Shown here in pieces: positions 24,355 through 34,568 of a stretch of DNA of 42,395 bases. A program made the position numbers and the translations under genes. The notes below the pieces were generated by a model. That model worked only from the letters and a program-made list of their open reading frames with translations, did no database searches and was not told the origin of the DNA. Position 1 is the first letter of the stretch. Every line of letters begins with the position of its first letter. This DNA is from a virus: positions 1 through 42,395 of IMG/VR virus record IMGVR_UViG_3300044946_000094; one strand, written 5' to 3'.

Positions 24355-24491
24355 TATTTCACCACTCGCAAAGGTTGCTTCTTGTCTTCTTCCACTCCAG
24401 TAGACTGCAACCGCAATTCAGCACCGCAATTCAGAAGTAACATCTGAAAAGCTAGCCAAGCAGTCGCTCGGGGATCGGGAGAGGGGATCAC
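24354..24491 (-). CDS. Small unknown early protein
   Basis: 45 aa from GTG 24491, which overlaps the preceding stop by GTGA. It begins VIPSPDPRATAWLAFQMLLL. The longer frame to 24626 would overlap a better-supported gene. No family recognised. Confidence 0.5.
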   Translation of the reverse strand: MIPSPDPRATAWLAFQMLLLNCGAELRLQSTGVEEDKKQPLRVVK

Positions 24492-28767: not shown

Positions 28768-30060
28768 GTGCCACGCATACGCACGATTAAGCCGGACCTA
28801 CCCCAGTCCGAAGCCCTCGGCCGTGTCTCCCGCGACGCTAGGCTCCTTTACCTTGAGCTTTGGACGCTCGTTGATGACGTGGGGCGCTGCCGAGCCGGGG
28901 CGCGACTCCTGGCCAGCTTGCTCTATCCCTACGACGATGGGGTCGAACAACGCATCGATTCATGGCTGGCCGAACTGGACCGCGAGCTTCTGTCCTGCTA
29001 CGAGATTGGCGGACAGCGCTATGTCGAGATAGCGAACTGGACAACCGAACTCCAGCGTATTGACAAGCCGACGGCGTCGAAGCTCCCAGCGTCTCGCGAG
29101 GATTCGCGACCATTCGCGAGGGCTCGCGAGGGCTCGCGAGGATTCGCGACGGAAGTGGAAGTGGAAGGGAATGGGAAGTGGATGGGAAATGGAAAGGAAA
29201 AAGACAACTACGTGCGCTCGCATTCGCTCGCTGTCGAGGTTGATTCAAACTCTGCACTGGCAGCTACTTCGAGCGAGCTAGTCCACATAATAGATATTCG
29301 AGGACCGCCAAGTGTAGATAACGCAACGAGTTCCACAGAAGCAACACCGAAAGTCCACAGCGATATCCACACTGCAAGGGCGCAGTTAGCACCACCAAAC
29401 GGCACACAAGACGGTTTACATAATCACGCCGCTCCGGCAATTGCCCCCGCTGCGCCCGTCCCAGCCGTCGATGGGGGAGCCAACTTAGCGGGTTCGACCA
29501 GTAACGCAAATCGTGTAGAGACTGCTGGTCCCAGGCATATGTTCACTCCCCCCGGAGCGAACTCGCCTCCGGCACAAACTCAACAGCCGAACGAGGAACG
29601 TTTACCTCCCAGCCGGGCAGGGCGCTCTCGCTCGCCCGTGCAAGGCGATTCGCTGGTGCAGGTCGCGAAAGTCGAGGGGTTGTTGCCTTCTGAGTGGCTG
29701 CCTGAGGAGAGGGCTTCCTTCCGGGATTGGGTCGCCATGCGCGTCCGGATCAAAAAGCCCCTGACGGTCGAGGGCTTGGCCCGACAGATCGCGACGCTGG
29801 AGCGGCTCTGTACTGCTGGCTTCCCCCGCAAAGCCGTCTGCGATCAGTCGACCGACAACTGCTGGCAGGGACTCTTCCCGCTCAAGGCCGACGCCTACAT
29901 AGCGCCCTCGCGCACTGAGAGGCCCAAGCCGGCCTGCGTCCACTGCGGGGGCAATGGGGACCTCACGCAGTACGACCGGAAGCCCATCCACGCGCGGTGT
30001 GTCGACCCGTGGGTATTGGCGGAGCAGGCGCGGTTTGACAGCGCGCGGAGGGCATCGTGA
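28768..30060 (+). CDS. Replication initiator (lambda O-like)
   Basis: 430 aa from GTG 28768. In-frame ATG at 28492 would add 92 poorly coding residues and is rejected. The N-terminus VPRIRTIKPDLPQSEALGRV followed by SRDARLLYLELWTLVDDVGR and LLASLLYPYDD is the winged-helix domain of phage replisome organisers. Residues about 95-290 are low complexity and contain the candidate origin. The C-terminus has WVAMRVRIKKPLTVEGLARQ, then DNCWQGLFPLK, as in the C-terminal domain of O-like proteins, and a zinc-ribbon-like CVHCGGNG...C. Expected to bind the origin and recruit host DnaB. No helicase gene is seen nearby. Confidence 0.72.
   Translation: MPRIRTIKPDLPQSEALGRVSRDARLLYLELWTLVDDVGRCRAGARLLASLLYPYDDGVEQRIDSWLAELDRELLSCYEIGGQRYVEIANWTTELQRIDKPTASKLPASREDSRPFARAREGSRGFATEVEVEGNGKWMGNGKEKDNYVRSHSLAVEVDSNSALAATSSELVHIIDIRGPPSVDNATSSTEATPKVHSDIHTARAQLAPPNGTQDGLHNHAAPAIAPAAPVPAVDGGANLAGSTSNANRVETAGPRHMFTPPGANSPPAQTQQPNEERLPPSRAGRSRSPVQGDSLVQVAKVEGLLPSEWLPEERASFRDWVAMRVRIKKPLTVEGLARQIATLERLCTAGFPRKAVCDQSTDNCWQGLFPLKADAYIAPSRTERPKPACVHCGGNGDLTQYDRKPIHARCVDPWVLAEQARFDSARRAS
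29094..29371. other. Candidate replication origin inside the initiator gene
   Basis: Six TCGCGA palindromes start at 29094, 29104, 29114, 29124, 29134 and 29144, exactly 10 bp apart. They are followed by a 54-nt tract without any C (29151-29204, 48 purines and 6 T). Five DnaA-box-like sites follow: 29279, 29313 (inverted TGTAGATAA), 29329, 29351 and 29363 (ATATCCACA). Iterons plus a purine-skewed tract within the initiator gene resembles lambda ori in gene O (established). Confidence 0.62.
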
Positions 30061-31528: not shown

Positions 31529-32101
31529 ATGAGCGCCGCCTTGAAATACGAACCGCTCTTTTTGTCAGAGGACCAAGAGCGCGAAGAACTAGAGCAGGCC
31601 CTCGGCCAAGTCGCCCAGCGCACGCCCGCCGAGATCGACTCATTCGCGAGTGAGTTGCTAGGCTCGCTCGGGCGATGCGAGGCCGATCTCCAGCGCTACA
31701 CCGAAGCCGAGAACGCCGAGATCGCCCGCATCCGCTTCCGCTACGCGCGGTTCAAGAACACGGTGGAATCCCGGCGCACGATGCTGGAAGGCGCGATCAA
31801 AGCGTTAGCCGAGCAACAAGACTTCGGCAGCAAGAAATCGCGTGAGACCGCGAATGGCACGTACGGACGCAGGACGACGCCAGTGCGCATTGAGATCATG
31901 GACCAAAAACAACTCTGCGACTGGGCACAAGGGAACGCGAAAGACTTCGTGACTGAGACCTATTCCGTCACGCACAAAGACGCGAGCCGCTACTACGCTG
32001 AGACTGGGATTGTCGCACCCGGCACGAAGCTGCACGAGCCGCAAGAGATTTGCTTTGCCCGTCCCGACATCAAAGGCCCTCACTCAGGACTGAGCCAATG
32101 A
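31529..32101 (+). CDS. Gam/Gp157-like protein
   Basis: 190 aa. Residues 15-100 form a long coiled coil (REELEQALGQVAQRTPAEID, then ASELLGSLGRCEADLQRY and ENAEIARIRFRYARFKNTVE). It is followed by KSRETANGTYGRRTTPVRIE and QKQLCDWAQGNAKDFVTETY, a short beta region with a helix. A long coiled coil plus a C-terminal SK-x-R...P-x-x-I-E-I block is characteristic of Mu Gam and Gp157 families, which bind DNA ends or affect recombination. The exact family could not be settled by eye. It sits within the recombination part of the early operon. Confidence 0.55.
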   Translation: MSAALKYEPLFLSEDQEREELEQALGQVAQRTPAEIDSFASELLGSLGRCEADLQRYTEAENAEIARIRFRYARFKNTVESRRTMLEGAIKALAEQQDFGSKKSRETANGTYGRRTTPVRIEIMDQKQLCDWAQGNAKDFVTETYSVTHKDASRYYAETGIVAPGTKLHEPQEICFARPDIKGPHSGLSQ

Positions 32102-32475
32102 GCGAGTCGTCTTGGGAAGACGTGCCGTTCGTCGTCGCCAAGTATTACAACATGATGTCGATTTGGGGTGGCGAGCCACCGAGAGAGCCTGATGCCGACG
32201 ACATCGAGAAGCAGCGTGTTCAACACGCGGAGCGCGTCGCGCGCTGGAAGGAATGGACCGCCATCGGGGATCTCAATTATCCGAGTGTGCCCCGCTATGA
32301 TGTCGAGTCGTATCGTTGCAAGAAGTGCGGCGAGACGCGGCACAAGGTCGGGCATTGCTCGCAGACGGAGATCGAGACGTGTTGCAAGATCGTGGGCCGA
32401 CGTGAGCATCTGCACATCGCTTGCAAACGCTGCAAGCACGACCAAATCCGACGCGTTGTCGAGGATGAACTATGA
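32098..32475 (+). CDS. Zinc-ribbon protein
   Basis: 125 aa, ATGA overlap. YRCKKCGETRHKVGHC (about 72-87), then TCCKIVGRREH and IACKRCKHDQ give two CxxC pairs and extra Cys/His, enough for one or two zinc sites. The N-terminal half is Trp/Glu-rich (SWEDVPFVVAKYYNMMSIWG). Unknown role; probably nucleic-acid binding. Confidence 0.62.
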   Translation: MSESSWEDVPFVVAKYYNMMSIWGGEPPREPDADDIEKQRVQHAERVARWKEWTAIGDLNYPSVPRYDVESYRCKKCGETRHKVGHCSQTEIETCCKIVGRREHLHIACKRCKHDQIRRVVEDEL

Positions 32476-32759
32476 CGACAAGTACGAGCTACTACGCCAC
32501 GATGCGGTTCGCCAACCGCTTAGAGTTGTGGCTCACGATTGCGTGCGCGGTGTTCTTTGTGGTGCTCTGTGTAGCGCAATGGAGCATCTACGCGCACGGC
32601 GGAGGAGTCATGACTGGCTCCGGCCCCTATCACGGCGGTGGCGCTACGAATGGCGCTGGGACTTCGCATCATCTGCCGGGCACTCCCACGCAAGCCCAGT
32701 GTCGCGCAGAAAGCGAGTGGAGAGATGCGGACATATCTGCTTGCGCGAGGGCGCGGTGA
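32472..32759 (+). CDS. Small membrane protein
   Basis: 95 aa. One transmembrane helix (LWLTIACAVFFVVLCVAQWS, about 20-39) is followed by a Gly/His/Thr-rich extracytoplasmic-type tail (HGGGVMTGSGPYHGGGATNG). The stop overlaps the methyltransferase GTG. Role unknown. Confidence 0.6.
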   Translation: MTTSTSYYATMRFANRLELWLTIACAVFFVVLCVAQWSIYAHGGGVMTGSGPYHGGGATNGAGTSHHLPGTPTQAQCRAESEWRDADISACARAR

Positions 32760-33478
32760 GTCTCGTGCTATCGCTGTTTCCTGGGATAGGTCTTCTCGAT
32801 CGCGCATTCGAGGAAGAGGGCTTCTGTGTCGTGCGCGGCCCCGACAAAATCTGGGGCGGCGACGTACGATCTTTCCATCCGCCTAAAGGCGTCTTCGACG
32901 GCGTTATAGGCGGCCCACCATGTCAGCGCTGGTCTCAGTTGCGGCACATGGTTATCGCTAATGGCTACGAGCTCGCCCCGAATCTCATTCCGGAGTATGA
33001 GCGTGTCGTGGGCGAAACCGCGCCGAGGTGGTGTGTGATGGAGGAAGTCCCAGCGGCGCCCATTCCCGCGATCGAAGGCTATTTGATTTACTCCGAATTA
33101 GTGCGCGACGTGTGGGTGGGTGGCAACACATCACGCACGCGGCGTATAAGCTTCGGTACGCGACGGGGCGCCCGTCTGCCGATCGAAGTCCTCGCATTGC
33201 ACCGCATTGAAGAGCGGCAAGCCGTTCTCGCAGGATCGAGCCGAAGCGTACCGGTCGCGATTGGTGGTAGTGGCAAGCGCAAGGTCACAGCGGACGGCAA
33301 TAGCACGCCATTGGCCGAGTTAATAGCAGCACAGGGGCTACCTGCGGGATTTCTCGACGGGTGTCCCTTGACTGCTGAGGGTAAACGTCAGGCGATCGGC
33401 AATGGTGTGCCGCTCGCCATGGGCCGTGCGATCGCCCGAGCAGTGAAGGCCGCTCTCGCCAAGGAGTCGGCTGCATGA
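32756..33478 (+). CDS. C5-cytosine DNA methyltransferase
   Basis: 240 aa from GTG 32756, overlapping the previous stop. Motif I is LSLFPGIGLLDRAFEEEGF (residues 5-23), motif IV is GGPPCQRW with catalytic Cys56, motif VI is MEEVP (95-99) and motif VIII is TRRISFG. The end (KRQAIGNGVPLAMGRAIARA) is motif X. At 240 aa it is shorter than the usual 300-400, with a reduced target-recognition region. It would protect phage DNA from host restriction or pair with the HNH gene next to it. Longer in-frame extension to 32168 is in an overlapping non-coding frame and rejected. Confidence 0.88.
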   Translation: MSLVLSLFPGIGLLDRAFEEEGFCVVRGPDKIWGGDVRSFHPPKGVFDGVIGGPPCQRWSQLRHMVIANGYELAPNLIPEYERVVGETAPRWCVMEEVPAAPIPAIEGYLIYSELVRDVWVGGNTSRTRRISFGTRRGARLPIEVLALHRIEERQAVLAGSSRSVPVAIGGSGKRKVTADGNSTPLAELIAAQGLPAGFLDGCPLTAEGKRQAIGNGVPLAMGRAIARAVKAALAKESAA

Positions 33479-33825
33479 AGCGTTCATCCCCGCCCCGACG
33501 CAAGAAGCCTCTCGCCCGCAGCCAACCGCCCCGGCGTAGTAGAAAGCCCATCGCCAAGCAGGGCAACTACGGCCGCAAACGCCAGGCCCGCTACGCCGCC
33601 TATCTCAAGAGCCCGAGATGGAAAGAATTGAAGCTGATCGCGCTGACGAAAGCCAACTTCTGTTGCGAGCGGTGCAGAACTGGCATCGAAGACGTGCGGC
33701 TGGAAGTGCATCACAAACGCTATCCCAAAGTGCTCGGGCAAGAAACGAGTGCGGATTTGGAAGTCCTCTGCACCTACTGTCACCGGGCGCACCATAGCAA
33801 AGACATGAAACGGAGAATCGCGTGA
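33475..33825 (+). CDS. HNH endonuclease
   Basis: 116 aa, ATGA overlap with the methyltransferase. A very basic N-terminus (RRKKPLARSQPPRRSRKPIA) is followed by SPRWKELKLIAL, zinc pair CERC (64-67), the HNH core LEVHHKRYPKV (His79/His80), then LEVLCTYCHRAHH with CxxCH (99-103). This is the complete HNH fold. Alone it would nick or cut DNA; HNH proteins often act in packaging or as homing enzymes. Neighbourhood with the methyltransferase is noted in the findings. Confidence 0.88.
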   Translation: MKRSSPPRRKKPLARSQPPRRSRKPIAKQGNYGRKRQARYAAYLKSPRWKELKLIALTKANFCCERCRTGIEDVRLEVHHKRYPKVLGQETSADLEVLCTYCHRAHHSKDMKRRIA

Positions 33826-34169: not shown

Positions 34170-34568
34170 ATGACTCCTCCCACCGAACTCGTGATCACCT
34201 TACCGTTGCCGCCGAACAGAGCAAACGGGCGCGGTCATTGGCGGAAATGGCACGCGGCGCGAGTCAGCTACTGCGACTGGGCGAACATGCGCTACATGGC
34301 TACACAACGGCATCTGCGTACGCTCTACGAAGACGGCGTGCCTCGGGACGCGAAGTTGTCGCTTGGCTTCACGCTCTATCTCGGCAATCGCATGGACGAT
34401 GACAATGCGCTTGCCCGCGTGAAATGGGCCGTGGACTGGCTTGTTGCCTCACAGCATCTGATGGACGACTCGCCGAAATTCTGTCGGATGTCCATCCCCT
34501 CCCAGGTGATCACCCGAGACAAGACGAAACAGAGGCTGGAGATTCACATCCAATATCAGGAGCCCTAA
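34170..34568 (+). CDS. RusA-like Holliday junction resolvase
   Basis: 132 aa. ELVITLPLPPNRANGRGHWR (6-25) is the RusA start with LP-x-PP-x-N. GNRMDDDNALARVKWAVDWL (72-91) has the acidic catalytic DxDN cluster, and LMDDSPKF (97-104) the final Asp pair. These are the conserved acidic sites of RusA, which cuts four-way DNA junctions during recombination or packaging. Length agrees with the family (about 120-140). Not confirmed by search. Confidence 0.75.
   Translation: MTPPTELVITLPLPPNRANGRGHWRKWHAARVSYCDWANMRYMATQRHLRTLYEDGVPRDAKLSLGFTLYLGNRMDDDNALARVKWAVDWLVASQHLMDDSPKFCRMSIPSQVITRDKTKQRLEIHIQYQEP

Follow-up and report, generated by a model that had tools for sequence, protein, structure and literature searches.

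The question raised by this locus is what is served by six identical palindromes that lie one per helical turn within the coding sequence of a replication initiator gene. The window, which is the whole stretch of viral DNA that was analysed (42,395 nucleotides, IMG/VR record IMGVR_UViG_3300044946_000094), had been described in a first-pass annotation as carrying six TCGCGA copies exactly 10 bp apart. The same starts were recovered here (29094, 29104, 29114, 29124, 29134 and 29144). When the window was scanned with all 64 three-base half-sites and a centre of 0 or 1, this array was found to be the sole chain of two or more exact dyads at 10 or 11 bp, and it lies beyond what was seen in 100 first-order Markov genomes, where the longest chain was 2. 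TCGCGA occurs 37 times in the window against 26.9 expected, and because the word itself is just mildly enriched, the signal of the array lies in its phasing. The features of the locus are collected in Table 1.

Table 1. Features of the initiator gene and its internal array (positions in the window)
Feature	Positions	Strand	Basis or proposed role
Initiator gene, GTG start, 430 aa	28768-30060	+	PHROG profile matches, AlphaFold2
DNA-binding N-domain, winged helix	28771-29092	+	AlphaFold2, fold comparison
Asp codon, specificity residue Q+3 (LQRI-D-KP)	29062-29064	+	Covariation with half-site
TCGCGA dyad array, six copies	29094-29149	.	Proposed initiator binding sites (iterons)
GGA-rich tract without C, containing tandem repeats of 5-11 bp	29151-29204	+	Proposed unwinding or helicase-loading region

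The first-pass annotation had also argued that the codon frame rotates through the array, such that the spacing is kept at the level of DNA. This agrees with two observations. The six copies occupy codon phases 2, 0, 1, 2, 0 and 1 in the 28768 frame, that is all three phases, and the autocorrelation of the linker exceeds that of synonymous-codon shuffles in which the protein is fixed, with Z = 3.9 at lag 10 and Z = 4.8 at lag 20. The 4-bp spacers between the dyads differ and the dyads are constant. Elsewhere in the window, a perfect 13-bp tandem repeat, ACCGCAATTCAGC, was noted at 24410-24434. The GC skew of the window gave no decisive support for an origin.

The initiator consists of the winged-helix N-domain, a linker encoded by the array and the tract, a long low-complexity middle, an O-like segment and a Cys/His-rich tail. 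In the PHROG profile search, which used open reading frame numbering from 28492, the N-domain matched the replication initiation profiles 1408, 2149 and 16167 with E-values of 1e-20, 5.8e-20 and 4.1e-18, and a C-terminal segment matched phrog_678, 'replication initiation O-like', with an E-value of 1e-9. No model in Pfam or NCBIfam was found to match the initiator. The N-domain was modelled with AlphaFold2, without DNA, from an alignment of 75 relatives from which the rows of annotated records were excluded (pLDDT 96, pTM 0.88). The model is made up of helices, a two-stranded wing (residues 74-79 and 82-87) and a short helix (residues 90-94), and carries a conserved HQ-x-x-X motif. The nearest solved folds are the RepA initiator N-domains 4pt7, 4pql and 5kbj, a weak likeness with E-values of 0.017-0.09 and a TM-score of about 0.54, and the nearest predicted viral folds in BFVD are phage replisome organizers. 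Other genes recognised in the window encode a Mu Gam-like end-protection protein (31529-32101, PHROG E 9.5e-7) and a C5 cytosine DNA methyltransferase (32168-33478, Pfam E 1e-9), and an HNH endonuclease (33475-33825) and a RusA-like resolvase (34170-34568) are encoded downstream of the initiator.

A DNA-level search of phage records with the window segment gave no match, and no relatives were found in a single-protein scan of IMG/VR. Relatives were searched with sub-alignments, as an alignment of 12 sequences was too diverse to serve as a query. Profile-guided scans of IMG/VR and GTDB contigs yielded 629 sequences, which were reduced to 506 non-redundant linkers, and the initiator domain is present in 315-334 phage records, with at least 334 in GenBank, and in 20 plasmid records. 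A match in a 6.2-kb plasmid record from E. coli was considered as a mini-replicon and rejected, the record being a linear lambdoid phage fragment. Phages and plasmids from several bacterial phyla, differing in their other genes, keep the array in the initiator gene, always within the linker and some 320 bp from the start of the gene. In nearly all of the closest relatives (domain 50-60% identical) the array is built of TCGCGA at 10 bp and leads into tracts resembling GGATCAAGGATCAAGG or GGAAGGGAAGGG. Over the whole family the palindrome is clade-specific and takes the forms TCGCGA, TCGNCGA, TCANTGA, TCCGGA, ACGCGT and GCACNGTGC. As an example, arrays spaced at 10 or 11 bp are formed by CTCANTGAG in Streptomyces, Gordonia, Corynebacterium and Segetibacter, by CTCCGGAG in other actinobacterial elements and by GCACNGTGC in Burkholderiales. 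TCGNCGA arrays were observed in Methylobacterium, Rickettsiella and one planctomycete contig, and ACGCGT arrays in Eoetvoesiella, Massilia and a Vibrio phage. Of the 506 relatives, 115 fell short of the criterion set for an array, some of them through a motif that is degenerate or absent.

Phasing in the relatives was measured against a null in which each linker was synonymously re-coded from its own codon usage with the protein fixed. Over 300 relatives the mean Z was 1.00 at lag 10 and 1.36 at lag 11 and close to 0 at most other lags. Values of Z above 2 were reached by 26% of the loci at lag 10 and by 35% at lag 11, with a weak signal at lags 20 and 21 and with 2-10% of the loci at the other lags. 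The phased-palindrome score was above all 100 shuffles in 55% of 298 loci and above at least 95 of them in 75%. Furthermore, phased hexamer chains of at least three members occur in 251 of 499 loci compared with 80 of 4990 shuffles, and the top phased word is palindromic in 208 of 434 cases (48%) against 79 of 1780 shuffles (4%). Exact dyads are separated, start to start, almost exclusively by 10/11, 21/22 or 32/33 bp, and almost never by 9 or 12. As a control, TCGNCGA elsewhere in the same loci was found to recur at multiples of three, as expected of coding sequence. These comparisons demonstrate, at the level of sequence, that the array is maintained as DNA with helical phasing. The phase is kept in the relatives beyond what the protein requires, which is the opposite of what the first-pass annotation had named as grounds for abandoning its reading. 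Its description of the design as TCGCGA at 10 bp holds for the family in part, as helical phasing is common to the relatives but clades differ in spacing (10 or 11 bp) and in the palindrome itself. TCGCGA arrays use both spacings and ACGCGT arrays mostly 11 bp, and a rule of a fixed 4-bp spacer (6+4=10, 7+4=11) was dropped for this reason.

The array classes were assigned by an unbiased search over 64 half-sites and were then compared with every column of the N-domain. The residue that follows the half-site is the third after the invariant glutamine of the HQ-x-x-X motif, beyond the wing. This position (Q+3) is occupied in the window by the aspartate listed in Table 1, which is residue 98 of the modelled domain and 99 of the protein. 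Among 391 loci that scored at least 5 and contained one or more complete dyads, D was observed with TCG in 211 of 214 cases and E with TCG in 14 of 15. Asparagine is read together with its neighbour, where N followed by R occurs with TCA (44/46) and N followed by N or P with ACG (64/64), and S was found with TCC (35/38) and H with CAC (4/6). The unfiltered counts are 249 of 273 for D with TCG, 125 of 142 for N with ACG or TCA and 39 of 50 for S with TCC. After clustering at 70% identity, 43 cluster-states pair D with TCG and 3 do not.

The motif columns were left out when the tree was made, and on this tree the half-site was seen to change at least 22 times. An earlier test on supported pairs left too few pairs for significance, and a larger sample was then used with non-overlapping closest pairs that differ in half-site, taken from all branches with branch support not enforced. 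Residue Q+3 differs in 16 of these 17 independent pairs compared with 3 of 32 control pairs sharing a half-site (Fisher p = 4.5e-9), and in the remaining pair it is the neighbour of Q+3 that differs. When all columns of the N-domain were ranked, Q+3 came first (p 2.5e-9), followed by the adjacent column (p 1.4e-3). The link between residue and half-site is not an artefact of overlap because the array does not include the Q+3 codon, which precedes the first dyad by 30 bp. A contact between the Q+3 residue and the base is what we infer from this covariation. The pairings are chemically ordinary, with D or E selecting a G:C pair through a contact to C and N selecting A. The association of initiator and array, which the first-pass annotation had assumed, is now backed by this code.

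Exceptions to the code were also observed. D occurs with TCC (TCCCGGA) in L127, S with TCA in L086 and N with TCC in L267, and the set L086, L113, L131, L127 and L267 comprises S-R with TCA-like half-sites, D with TCCCGGA and N-K with TCC. These cases suggest that the Q+4 neighbour and further residues contribute to specificity. In addition, Mycobacterium phage Rebel (L642) and Gordonia phage Matteo (L015) have the motifs HQKTE and HQRNE and linkers periodic at 10-11 bp. Their half-sites (GCG/CGC, GGAACTTCC-like) fall outside the code and possibly represent further half-site classes.

The tract that follows the array was the other element singled out in the first-pass annotation, as 54 bases without cytosine. 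This run is present, and no other run in the window that lacks one of the bases is as long. In 200 Markov genomes, C-free runs did not exceed 37 bases. The absence of cytosine is not kept in the relatives, as a C-free 36-mer was found in just 10% of them. A purine content of at least 80% over some 36 bp was observed in 73% of relatives and in 0.2% of the control segments, and C-freeness was rejected as the key conserved feature in favour of purine asymmetry. The lack of cytosine in the window is thus a special case. The coding-strand purine content of the relatives rises past the last dyad from 50% to 72-81% for about 40 bp. The purine peak lies 0-50 bp after the last dyad and coincides with a minimum of duplex stability located 20-40 bp downstream of that dyad. 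The units of these tracts are variable tandem repeats of 5-8 bp around GGA, such as GGGAACA, GGGAGCA, GGAAGGG and GGATCAA. A two-tetrad G-quadruplex pattern was found in 77% of tracts against 4.5% upstream, and a G-quadruplex or a purine-strand triplex is a possible form of the tract. It is the non-coding strand that is GGA-rich in the H-class (a Bordetella phage, Burkholderiales and HK639), whose tandem tract is (CTGATTC)n, strand-flipped relative to the other classes (L011, L308, L313, L314, L317, L323 and L636). The base composition and stability profile suggest the tract as an unwinding or helicase-entry region.

Taken as a whole, the comparative evidence makes it very probable that the initiator binds the array within its own gene and that array and tract together form the replication origin of the phage. 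The two parts of this reading differ in strength. Binding of the array by the initiator is almost certain, since a single residue of the winged-helix domain and the half-site of the array change in step. Array and tract are most likely the origin, by analogy with the in-gene origins of pSK41, TP901-1/Tuc2009 and lambda.

A different role for the same binding has to be considered, in which the initiator occupies the array for autoregulation, as a roadblock or repressor array in its own gene, and replication starts elsewhere. Autoregulation is common among initiators, and the code supports recognition alone and not function. However, operators normally lie at promoters and the array is always found within the linker, some 320 bp past the start of the gene. 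A purine tract at a fixed distance after the array would also be needless for a roadblock, and for lambda, TP901-1/Tuc2009 and pSK41 experiments have placed the origin inside the initiator gene. We consider autoregulation without origin function to be improbable. The array could also serve another protein, such as a partition protein, a phage repressor or a nucleoid protein, and be found in the linker by chance. Phased short repeats do occur in centromere-like sites, and the parS of cluster A mycobacteriophages consists of tandem 8-bp repeats (PMC7157519). Such a protein would not explain why the half-site tracks the initiator's own residue in 16 of 17 independent changes, nor why the array stays in the initiator gene across several bacterial phyla with differing other genes, which makes this explanation very unlikely.

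Two further explanations were considered. The linker tolerates many sequences and the tract is made of tandem 5-8 bp repeats, as would be seen if the array were the product of neutral slippage in a disordered, unconstrained region and the tract a microsatellite. Slippage would generate identical neighbours, however, and in the array it is the dyads that are constant and the 4-bp spacers that vary. Nor would it yield repeated words that are palindromic in 48% of cases against 4% in shuffles, spacings that mix 10 and 11 and almost never include 9 or 12, or a repeated word that tracks a distant protein residue. We find slippage extremely unlikely. Selection on a repeated linker peptide (SRE-DSR-like) would account for the repeated Ser/Arg/Glu peptides of many members. 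It is refuted by the excess of the signal over shuffles that preserve the peptide, and the six dyads occupy all three codon phases; it can practically be set aside.

For an origin bound by its own initiator, the following mechanism is proposed. Winged-helix protomers would bind both half-sites of each dyad (T-C-G and C-G-A), and one pair of protomers per helical turn would build a continuous nucleoprotein array on one face of the DNA. This array may stress the adjacent G/A tract, which is strand-asymmetric and less stable and would open. Delivery of the replicative helicase could then fall to the initiator's C-terminal part or to the helicase loader that relatives such as HK639 encode beside it. 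The interdomain linker encoded by the origin probably tolerates almost any sequence, and this tolerance allows the array DNA to dictate the linker.

We suggest tentatively, and with slightly less than even confidence, that these elements represent a large and essentially uncharacterised class of phage origins, in which array-loading winged-helix initiators act on in-linker dyads of 6-9 bp and melt a G/A tandem-repeat tract, with specificity set mainly by one residue. If this is true, D, N or S would select G, A or C at the third base of the half-site, and origin specificity would switch by one protein change and a matching conversion of the array. To our knowledge, no origin has been assigned in most actinobacterial phages and in many proteobacterial ones. 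Inspection of the array would predict the origin to within about 100 bp, and the residue code would predict which initiators are cross-compatible. The system would also provide a compact orthogonal set of initiators and arrays and a clean model for the co-evolution of an initiator with an origin embedded in its own gene, the latter since many independent changes of half-site are matched by one and the same residue. A literature search, with most subscription journals outside its coverage, returned no description of tandem 6-9 bp dyads at one-turn spacing within the initiator gene of a phage and no residue code that goes with such dyads, which does not by itself prove novelty.

Among known systems, the Rep proteins of geminiviruses are unrelated rolling-circle proteins whose iterons lie upstream of the gene and are not phased dyads within it. 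The name 'RepA-like' in cluster A mycobacteriophages is common by annotation alone, and RepA of phage Miko (PMC7157519) was dropped as experimental support since it gave no match to the N-domain profile. The replisome organizers of TP901-1 (ORF13) and Tuc2009 bind direct repeats in their own gene that act as the origin (PMC8965321). TP901-1 Rep matched the N-domain profile at E 0.044, below inclusion, and a phased dyad array was looked for in TP901-1 and found absent. The Pfam model Phage_rep_org_N (PF09681) gave no match above its cut-off, the sole hit being L016 at E 0.048.

The staphylococcal RepA_N initiators (pSK41 and pTZ2162) resemble the present family in having repeats inside their own gene and may resemble it in the N-domain, for which they give the closest solved fold, a weak match (E 0.017, TM 0.54, rmsd 7.7). 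In pSK41, the winged-helix N-domain of RepA binds repeats located centrally in its own gene, the part encoded by the origin is a dispensable linker and a separate C-terminal part acts as a recruiter (PMC5703833). The Pfam RepA_N model (PF06970) matched neither the window protein nor seven relatives. RepA_N iterons are long semi-palindromic repeats that converge on a poly-A tract (PMC7145576), and differ in this from the 6-9 bp dyads placed every helical turn in the window family.

The parallel with lambda ori drawn in the first-pass annotation is upheld by the position in the initiator's own gene, by the order of an array followed by a strand-asymmetric, less stable tract and by the location of the family member in HK639. 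Both lambda O and the present initiator combine an N-terminal DNA-binding part with a C-terminal effector, and the sites lie inside the initiator gene with a purine-rich asymmetric tract after them. In the lambdoid phage HK639 the gene order is CI, pR, Cro, CII, one gene, the family member gp54, a P-like helicase loader and Ren, where gp54 sits at the place that O has in lambda, before the P-like loader. The two systems differ in their iterons, which in lambda are four 18-bp units within O spaced by 20, 24 and 23 bp and in the window are dyads of 6 bp repeated every 10 bp. Lambda was found to lack chains of short dyads at 10/11 bp. The lambda tract is A-rich and that of the initiator family GGA-rich, and lambda O gave no match to the N-domain profile. 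An iteron origin inside an initiator gene is an already known kind of origin, and the new elements are the type of iteron, its phasing with the helix in several bacterial phyla and the code of one residue.
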